Of a DNA stretch of 59,033 bases, positions 41,872 to 44,666 are shown piece by piece; the stretch's first letter is position 1; each line of letters starts with the position of its first letter. Source of the DNA: Nitrososphaeria archaeon (GTDB taxonomy: Archaea > Thermoproteota > Nitrososphaeria > Nitrososphaerales > JANXEG01); contig JARVKA010000007.1 of the NCBI GenBank assembly GCA_029775915.1, forward strand, positions 1 through 59,033, given 5' to 3'. The notes below the pieces were generated by a model, which saw only the letters and a program-made list of their open reading frames with translations, was not told the DNA's origin and made no database searches. A program made the translations under genes and the position numbers.

Positions 41872-44199
41872 ATGAGCTTCAATCCTAAAATCGTGGAAAA
41901 GGCTTGGAATCCAGAAATAGAGCGAGAAATCTTTTACCAATGGGAAAAAGAAGGTATATACAAATTTAATATCAATACACAACGTGAAATTTTTTCAATA
42001 GATACACCGCCACCTTATCCATCTGGAAGGCCTTGGCATATAGGTGCTGCAGCACATTATTCACAAATCGATATGATCGCTAGAACAGCGAGAATGATGA
42101 ATTACGAAGTTTACTTTCCAATAGGTATAGATCGGAATGGTTTACCTGTAGAACTATATACGGAGAAGAAGTATAAAGTTAGTATTCGTGATTTACCGAG
42201 AGAGAAATTCATTGAGCTTTGTAAGCATGCTTTAGATGAATTAGAGGCTGAAATGATTGAAATTATGAAGATGATGGGTTTGAGCGGGGATTTTGAGAAT
42301 TATTATCGTACAGATTCTGAAGATTACAGAAGATTAACTCAAACTACCTTTATTGAATTATGGAAAAGAGGCTTAATTTATGAAGCTACTCGACCAAATA
42401 ATTATTGTTTAGATTGTGGAACTACGATAGCGGATGCTGAGGTAAGTTATATTGAGCAACCAAGCCAACTTGTTTATATAAAATTTAAGATTAAAGAAAG
42501 TAATGAAGATTTAATTATAGCTACTACGAGGCCTGAGCTTCTTTGCTCTTGCCAATTGATTATTGTTCATCCTGAAGATCAGAGATATAAGCATATACAT
42601 AATCTACATGCAATCATACCCATTTACAATAGGGAGGTGGAGATTAAACCCCATCCCAGCGCAAAGCCAGAATTCGGTAGTGGTGTTGCGATGATTTGTA
42701 GTTATGGAGATTACACAGATGTACTTTTATTTAGAGAATTGGGTTTGCAAGAGATTATTGCAATTAATGAGAATGGAAAAATTACCGATGTTGGTGGGAT
42801 TATTGCTGGATTAACGGTAAATGAAGCACGTAAAAAAATTATCGATGAATTGAGGAATAGGGGATTAATCGTTAAAATAGAAGAGATTAAACATCGTACA
42901 CCAGTTTGCGAAAGAAGTCGTACACCTATTGAGATTATACCTATGAAGGAATATTATTTAAAACAAGTCGATCAAGTACCAATATTAAAGAAATTAGTAG
43001 AAAGTATGATCTTTCATCCAGAAGCTCATCGCCAAATACTACTTGATTGGCTCAATTCAATAAAGATCGATTGGGCAATTTCAAGAAGAAGATATTATGC
43101 TACAGAGATTCCTGTTTGGTACTGTAAGAAATGTGGTGAGCCTCATGTGCCTGAGCCTGGACCATATTATTTACCTTGGAAGGATAAGCCACCATTCGAT
43201 AAATGTAATCGGTGTGGCAATAATGAGTTTATTGGTGATACTAGAACTTTAGACACATGGGTTGATTCAAGTATATCACCATTGTATATTTCAGAATATT
43301 TAAGGGATGAGAAAAAATTCAATATTTTATATCCTACAACCTTAAGACCTCAAGCTAAAGATATTATCAGAACTTGGTTACATTACACGATTTTAAGATG
43401 TTATCAACTCACAAATAAAGCGCCTTTCAAGCATGTATGGATTATGGGTTATGGTGTTGATGAGAAAGGAGAGAGAATGAGTAAGAGTAAAGGGAATGTG
43501 ATAGATCCTATACCTATTTTGAAAAAGTATGGTGCGGATGCATTTAGATTATGGGCAGCTTCAGAGGCAAAGTTAGGCTCTGACTTTCGATGCTCAGAAA
43601 AGAAGATTGCAGCTGTTAAAAAATTCCTCACCAAACTTTGGAATATATCAAGATTTATCTCATGCTTTCCTCAACCAATTGAAGTAAATTTAATACCTTC
43701 AGATAAATGGATTCTTGGTGAGCTCTCTAAATTGATAAATGATTGTTTTGAGGGTTATAGAGATTTTGATTTTTACATACCTGCTAATAAAATTAGAGAG
43801 TTCTCTTGGAATTTATTTGCATCACATTATATAGAGATGGTTAAGGCTAGAGCTTATGGATTAGGATTTTCGAGTGAAGAGCAAAAAGCTGCATGGTATA
43901 CTTTGCATACTTGTTTAAAAACGATACTCTTACTCTCAGCACCCATAATTCCTTTTATCACAGAGTATATTTGGCGAAAATTGTATAGTAATGAGAGTAT
44001 TCATAAACAACTCTTTCCTGAGGCGAAATGGAGTATAGAATTAACGTCGCTTACAAAATCATTAATCAATTTCAACTCAAAGGTTTGGAATATGAAAAAA
44101 GAGAAAGGATTATCACTTAAAGATAAAATTCAAATTGAAATTCCGAATGAGTTAAAGATTTTTGAAAAAGATTTGAAAGTAATGCACAATATTGTGTGA
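41872..44199 (+). CDS. valS: valyl-tRNA synthetase
   Basis: 775 residues, class I synthetase of the Val/Ile/Leu group. PPPYPSGRPWHIGAA carries the HIGH-type motif (HIGA here), ERMSKSKGNV the KMSKS loop. IATTRPELL marks the editing (CP1) domain. DTWVDSSISPLYI and LRPQAKDIIRTWLHY are typical of archaeal ValRS, not LeuRS or IleRS. Zinc C-x2-C sites occur in CLDCG and in CKKCG...CNRCG. It is somewhat short at the C-terminus compared with many ValRS proteins. Confidence 0.88.
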   Translation: MSFNPKIVEKAWNPEIEREIFYQWEKEGIYKFNINTQREIFSIDTPPPYPSGRPWHIGAAAHYSQIDMIARTARMMNYEVYFPIGIDRNGLPVELYTEKKYKVSIRDLPREKFIELCKHALDELEAEMIEIMKMMGLSGDFENYYRTDSEDYRRLTQTTFIELWKRGLIYEATRPNNYCLDCGTTIADAEVSYIEQPSQLVYIKFKIKESNEDLIIATTRPELLCSCQLIIVHPEDQRYKHIHNLHAIIPIYNREVEIKPHPSAKPEFGSGVAMICSYGDYTDVLLFRELGLQEIIAINENGKITDVGGIIAGLTVNEARKKIIDELRNRGLIVKIEEIKHRTPVCERSRTPIEIIPMKEYYLKQVDQVPILKKLVESMIFHPEAHRQILLDWLNSIKIDWAISRRRYYATEIPVWYCKKCGEPHVPEPGPYYLPWKDKPPFDKCNRCGNNEFIGDTRTLDTWVDSSISPLYISEYLRDEKKFNILYPTTLRPQAKDIIRTWLHYTILRCYQLTNKAPFKHVWIMGYGVDEKGERMSKSKGNVIDPIPILKKYGADAFRLWAASEAKLGSDFRCSEKKIAAVKKFLTKLWNISRFISCFPQPIEVNLIPSDKWILGELSKLINDCFEGYRDFDFYIPANKIREFSWNLFASHYIEMVKARAYGLGFSSEEQKAAWYTLHTCLKTILLLSAPIIPFITEYIWRKLYSNESIHKQLFPEAKWSIELTSLTKSLINFNSKVWNMKKEKGLSLKDKIQIEIPNELKIFEKDLKVMHNIV

Positions 44200-44445: not shown

Positions 44446-44552
44446 TGCGGTGGCCGGGATTTGAACCCGGGTTACCAGCGTGGCAGGCTTCCACACCATA
44501 GGTTTGATGTCCTAGACCAAATTATCCGCTTTAAGCTCTAGACGACCACCGC
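44446..44552 (-). tRNA. tRNA-Gly (GCC) with two inserted segments
   Basis: Acceptor arms GCGGTGG/CCACCGC (44552-44546 and 44453-44447) and discriminator A at 44446 are intact, and CCGGG-TTCAAAT-CCCGG is a perfect T arm. The anticodon loop CTGCCAC gives GCC (44484-44482). The D stem is GTCT/GGAC, but the D loop holds about 16 extra bases within 44519-44537. The 5' anticodon strand is interrupted by 16 bases (44490-44505); removing them restores TCAGC pairing with GCTGG. Without both inserts the length is about 74. They are probably archaeal introns at non-canonical positions; I could not draw a clean bulge-helix-bulge for either. CCA is not encoded. Confidence 0.85.
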
Positions 44553-44666
44553 CAAATTATAAAATTTAATCTCCAAGGCTTAAAGTTTTTGCTTAACATT
44601 ATAAAAAGGGGTATTTTTAAGGATATAATTTGGGAAGGTTAAATAATCAATTGTAATATGTGAATT

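Follow-up and report, generated by a model that had tools for sequence, protein, structure and literature searches.

The minus strand of the window, by which we mean the whole 59,033-nucleotide stretch of DNA that was analysed, carries a tRNA-Gly(GCC) gene at 44446..44552, and direct reading, threading and the orthologs of relatives confirm that this gene, read from 44552 to 44446, is real and interrupted twice. It covers tRNA positions 1-73 with no encoded CCA. Direct reading identifies the standard parts already recognised in a sequence-only reading of this DNA, namely a 7-bp acceptor stem, the T arm CCGGG-TTCAAAT-CCCGG and the anticodon loop CTGCCAC. That reading had also proposed interruptions in the D loop and the anticodon stem, neither at 37/38, and a hand-made threading script, which permits introns in either the D arm or the anticodon arm and slightly rewards splice-site pairing when it chooses boundaries, placed two inserts of 16 nt each at 15/16 and 29/30. 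Threading and removal tests thus delimit exon 1 (44538..44552; acceptor 5' strand and positions 8-15), intron 1 (44522..44537; AGCTTAAAGCGGATAA, in the D loop, with introns at the same site in relatives), exon 2 (44505..44521; remaining D loop, D stem 3' strand and positions 26-29, also matched in a relative), intron 2 (44489..44504; AACCTATGGTGTGGAA, in the anticodon stem, again with introns at the same site in relatives) and exon 3 (44446..44488; position 30 to the discriminator base, with the anticodon GCC at 44484-44482, supported by reading, threading and a relative's match). The boundary of intron 2 may shift by one base with no change in the spliced product, as the two removals give identical sequences; the interval 44490-44505 first proposed for this intron therefore yields the right product, although it lies one base off 44504-44489. 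Removal of both inserts leaves a 75-nt tRNA, and the three exons lie in order within 107 bases, so the gene is neither split nor permuted. A TATA-like element (TTTTTATAAT; 44598..44607, minus strand), about 46-55 bases upstream, is a possible but weak promoter, since 37 tRNA genes showed no common promoter spacing. The upstream window gene at 41872-44199 was considered as a leucyl-tRNA synthetase and rejected as such; it is valine--tRNA ligase.

Both inserts can be drawn with the helix-bulge pairing of a bulge-helix-bulge (BHB) splice site, having 3-base bulges divided after their second base. For intron 1, the central helix of 4 bp, two of them G-U, joins GTCT of the exon (10-13) to GGAT of the intron and is flanked by the bulges AG-A and AA-T (hyphen at the cut) and a 3-bp inner helix, GCT/AGC. 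For intron 2, the central helix sets ACAT of the exon against GTGG of the intron (3 bp and one A.G mismatch), the bulges are CA-A and AA-G, the inner helix is ACC/GGT (3 bp), and an outer exon-exon helix of 4 bp joins 20b-23 with 31-34. The earlier statement that no textbook BHB could be folded is corrected by these drawings; at 29/30 the A.G mismatch makes the motif a slightly relaxed form. Shuffling of the intron equalled the observed pairing in 16 of 20000 trials for intron 1 and 134 of 20000 for intron 2, figures that are somewhat generous because the boundaries were picked with a pairing bonus. Threading returned, only 0.9 points lower, a second solution in which the gene still has two introns and the D-loop boundary lies elsewhere, at 13/14; as its inner helix contains no pair at all (H4 h0), while the bulges AG-A/T recur at 15/16 in all 13 genes compared, we consider such a placement very unlikely.

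To compare the gene with its relatives, 61 genomes of the order, source genome included, were scanned with a Gly T-arm/acceptor pattern, which was found in 56. With loci from an earlier search added, the set came to 76 distinct fitted sequences; 64 are Gly (29 GCC, 19 CCC and 16 TCC). The Gly tally leaves out 12 of the 76 with a non-Gly anticodon, two of which are real Glu (L153) and Asp (L160) genes while the others (L150, L151, L168, L170, L172, L183-L186 and L199) resemble Gly(TCC) genes whose introns are too many for the script; L191, which has no acceptor match, is also outside it. Fifteen of the 29 distinct Gly(GCC) sequences have no intron, five have introns at 15/16 and 37/38, three at 29/30 and two at 37/38, with single cases at 38/39, at 15/16, at 29/30 with 37/38, and at 15/16 with 29/30, the last being the window gene only. 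A further tRNA-Gly(GCC), from genome G025 (L162), fits three introns, at 15/16, at 37/38 and directly before the T loop, and was kept out of the tally as its T arm is interrupted. Across the Gly genes, the 15/16 intron also occurs in 12 further distinct genes of relatives, besides that of G025, and the 29/30 intron in 11 further distinct genes, one of them within the source genome. A direct comparison is offered by an intronless Gly(GCC) gene of another genome (L213, G046), which aligns to the locus in two collinear segments (its bases 13-32 with 44524-44505, 95%; 32-75 with 44489-44446, 98%) and differs from the spliced window tRNA at 2 of 75 positions, both in one exchanged acceptor pair, 6-67. 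Splicing would thus yield a standard tRNA like those encoded by intronless orthologs. The neighbourhood of aRF1 offered no such comparison, since the named loci L028-L107 yielded no tRNA-Gly(GCC) but intron-bearing tRNA-Leu(CAA) genes instead. In many named relatives the tRNA-Leu(CAA) gene adjoining aRF1 has a D-loop and a 30/31 intron (loci examined: L029, L030, L035, L036, L047, L048, L068 and L085), and in others it has none (L042, L049, L051 and L054).

The inner helices of the two splice sites show compensatory change among these Gly genes. At 15/16, 36 of 39 inner-helix pairs are kept across 13 distinct genes with introns of 16 to 90 nt (families f1, f4, f8, f10 and f12), whereas exchange of 3' sides among the genes leaves 18.8 on average and 30 at most; at 29/30, 35 of 36 are kept across 12 genes with introns of 14 to 21 nt (families f1, f4, f11, f13 and f17), against a mean of 26.7 and a maximum of 33. 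Both exceed all 2000 swaps, a comparison that is not a probability because related sequences are not independent. Introns at 37/38 in 11 genes keep 23 of 33 inner-helix pairs (swapped, mean 18.9, maximum 25). The central helix shows no covariation beyond the swaps (43 of 52 against 42.6 at 15/16; 42 of 48 against 40.7 at 29/30) and is uninformative because there is little variation on its exon side. The outermost central-helix pair is G.A in 7 of the 13 genes that have the 15/16 intron and A.G in 6 of the 12 that have the 29/30 intron, so the relaxed form is common among them. Comparison with relatives thus supports the predicted intron boundaries.

Energy-based folding of the precursor is less favourable. 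The RNAfold minimum contains no BHB; the best structures holding the 15/16 BHB, the 29/30 BHB or both lie 2.5, 6.3 and 9.9 kcal/mol above it, and the hand-drawn double-BHB fold lies 13.6 kcal/mol above it. As model predictions these values count against the BHB fold of the precursor; the median gap over 45 introns of the source genome is 6.3 kcal/mol, so the single-intron gaps of the window gene are at or below it, and the spliced cloverleaf is itself predicted to lie 4.4 kcal/mol above its own minimum. The minimum structure features an alternative stem, GTGTGG/CCACGC, with a loop, AAGCCTG, that also contains GCC. We note that the GTGG at the end of intron 2 (within 44489-44504) can also pair with CCAC of the anticodon loop (44482-44477), and that this pairing gives the alternative stem around GCC, in competition with the splice fold. 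Such a stem would suit a mature tRNA that keeps the inserts as an enlarged D loop and anticodon arm, but its AAGCCTG loop has no U33, the 15 intronless Gly(GCC) genes have ordinary arms, and insert length at these fixed positions ranges from 14 to 90 nt in Gly genes, which together render retention of the inserts exceedingly improbable.

Ordinary tRNA detectors miss the gene. ARAGORN reported no tRNA over the window and Rfam none at gathering score, the Rfam tRNA model scoring 14.4 bits at the locus against a cut-off of 29. ARAGORN was also tried as a boundary test and set aside as non-discriminating: among 1326 arbitrary paired 16-nt removals it called some tRNA from 475 and tRNA-Gly(gcc) from 249, only 2 of which are the predicted product, and on the half-spliced form it gave a spurious tRNA-Ile(tat). 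Rejection by standard finders is what a decayed or silent gene with random insertions would show, GGC and GGU then being read by another gene. A second intact tRNA-Gly(GCC), which had been named as grounds for abandoning the two-intron reading, was looked for in the source genome by pattern, by the Rfam tRNA model (150 of 170 candidates scored) and by matching a relative's gene, and was not found. With exons that match an intronless relative save for one compensated pair, and relatives whose introns share these positions and have stems that covary, decay is extremely unlikely. Among 253 Gly codons in 13 ORFs near the gene (16 were listed, of which three overlapping ones were left out), GGT and GGC account for 146; because of this, and because no other Gly(GCC) gene was found, the cell probably needs the window gene.

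The earlier reading had also called for a splicing endonuclease of broad specificity, and candidate genes for one are present. The source genome contains, away from the window, two PF01974 genes, both above the TIGR00324 endA cut-off, which would supply separate catalytic and structural subunits. Residues 8-185 of the putative alpha subunit (186 aa) align with the catalytic subunits of Sulfolobus and Aeropyrum; the protein has Tyr125, His131 and Lys162, with His131 over A. pernix His133. Its K40-P41-K42 lies over A. pernix K44-P45-R46 (3P1Z) and follows the loop rule of Lys, then Pro/Val, then Lys/Arg given in the consulted part of PMC12397907; the loop lysine is tied to broad endonuclease specificity in the portions consulted of that paper and of PMC6379350. 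The second protein (beta) has no His at all and is therefore probably the structural subunit. A single RtcB ligase gene is also present. The resemblance to the Aeropyrum pernix (alpha-beta)2 endonuclease 3P1Z thus extends to a near full-length catalytic match, the K-P-K loop and a separate structural subunit; in this comparison of sequence, assembly and specificity are predictions. The evidence as a whole supports the earlier interpretation, two short non-canonical introns served by an endonuclease of predicted broad specificity.

Taken together, the anatomy of the locus, the exon match to an intronless relative, the covariation and the enzyme genes, all of them read from sequence, lead us to conclude with high confidence that the gene is functional, that it is the sole copy of tRNA-Gly(GCC) and contains two non-canonical BHB introns, at 15/16 and 29/30, and that both are very probably cut out by the cell with a broad-acting tRNA-splicing enzyme. 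We infer that the gene is transcribed into a precursor in which the end of intron 1 would pair with positions 10-13, the D stem's 5' strand, the end of intron 2 with positions 25-27, and 20b-23 with 31-34. An assembled (alpha-beta)2 splicing endonuclease would then cleave every 3-base bulge behind its second base and RtcB would join the exons, the D stem and anticodon stem presumably forming afterwards in this order of processing.

Splicing of such introns appears to be used in most tRNA genes of the source genome. Of 41 distinct tRNA genes (loci L001-L027, L110-L126, L163-L166 and the window), threading fitted introns in 35, to a total of 57 that may be off by a few since some fits are weak. 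The 38 genes first threaded came down to 36 when a duplicate of Thr(TGT) was omitted and Leu(CAA) treated separately, and 30 of the 36 have 45 fitted introns; five harder genes add 12 (Leu(CAA), Tyr and Ser(GGA) three each, Gln(CTG) two and His one). Leu(GAG) entered the count with its second-best fit, and the weak fits include Ser(TGA) at 22/23 and Gln(TTG) at 25/26, with one central pair each. Only 8 + 3 of the 57 lie at 37/38; sites elsewhere include the D arm, anticodon arm and variable region, together with an acceptor-stem intron in Ser(GGA) and a T-loop intron in His. Six genes were fitted with no intron (Pro-TGG, Ser-GCT, Cys, one CAT, Leu-TAG and Phe). The whole-genome search assigned no gene to Leu-TAA, Glu-CTC, Thr-CGT, Pro-CGG or one of initiator Met and Ile2, and these genes may be broken in ways that it does not see. 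The CAT gene at C5:37171 is ambiguous between initiator Met and Ile2. One initiator tRNA-Met pattern had no match in the source genome and a stricter one none in 15 genomes, but both patterns are poor and the result is uninformative.

In the source genome, a second copy of the last 46 bases of tRNA-Ile(GAT) and the 12 bases after them lies about 5.1 kb away (L167; G000:C5, ~95284-100430), and between the copies are ORFs that resemble, by eye, a tyrosine integrase and a DNA methyltransferase, so that an integrated element appears to use this intron-bearing gene. Coding sequence runs through the attachment repeat, as the integrase-like ORF has the peptide MVGLPGFEPGTFRLSAE at its start and an ORF at the other copy has it close to its end (L167:2293-3159 and L167:7106-7450). 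Genes for tRNA-Thr stand at contig ends (L012, G000:C1:89-179; L013, G000:C3:248492-248582; L123, G000:C5:11590; L131, G000:C7:45-102); Thr(TGT) is identical on C1 and C3, the visible part of Thr(GGT) on C7 agrees with the C5 gene, and repeats at these genes may break the assembly.

The introns are of a known type, in an unusually intron-rich genome outside the Thermoproteales. Judged by aRF1 relatives only, of which the best named is 'Nitrososphaerota archaeon isolate XS84Bin3' (70% identity), the source genome (1.47 Mb, 99% complete) appears Nitrososphaeria-like; the Thermoproteota setting first suggested is corrected in that the lineage is not one of the classical Thermoproteales. tRNA genes with multiple non-canonical introns in Crenarchaeota and Thaumarchaeota are already described in the consulted part of PMC8450103. 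Multi-intron Thermoproteales such as Pyrobaculum calidifontis likewise have several short BHB introns per gene, up to three, at canonical and non-canonical sites (sections of PMC8450103 and PMC4390854); the source genome differs in its lineage and in the 15/16 and 29/30 pair of tRNA-Gly(GCC). Its fitted total is near the published record, 71 introns in 46 genes for P. calidifontis with a Thermoproteales mean of 0.84 per gene (from sections of PMC8450103), as far as counts from dedicated software can be set against 57 introns in 41 genes from a hand-made script. Thaumarchaeota and Caldiarchaeum are related archaea with non-canonical introns, D-arm sites included, but C. subterraneum has introns in only 13 of 45 tRNA genes, against 35 of 41 fitted here (sections of PMC8450103 and PMC3293823). 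The tri-split tRNA-Gly(GCC) of Caldivirga maquilingensis also has three exonic pieces and BHB-type junctions (sections of PMC4390854), but its pieces are separate transcripts whereas the window gene holds all three exons. We also drew on parts of PMC3218864, PMC4090602, PMC4033280 and PMC6000648. The titles and abstract openings listed by searches on such introns mention no 15/16 or 29/30 tRNA-Gly introns in Nitrososphaerota, and as subscription papers are mostly outside this survey, this is weak evidence of novelty.

A joint reading, which we put forward tentatively and regard as possible but on balance doubtful, is that this Nitrososphaeria lineage underwent its own tRNA-intron expansion rivalling that of Pyrobaculum, with 15/16 and 29/30 position families that Gly isoacceptors share in several of the order's families, and that splicing would act as an obligatory folding switch because the two introns occupy both D-stem strands, with no tRNA-Gly(GCC) core before both cuts. 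For annotation, the finding corrects the record of a genome whose only Gly(GCC) gene found escapes ordinary detectors. Many Gly(GCC) genes of the order are intronless, yet the source genome is close to the published record load. Comparisons within this order can test how tRNA introns are gained, lost and spread, and whether they are linked, as has been proposed, to the loop of the endonuclease.
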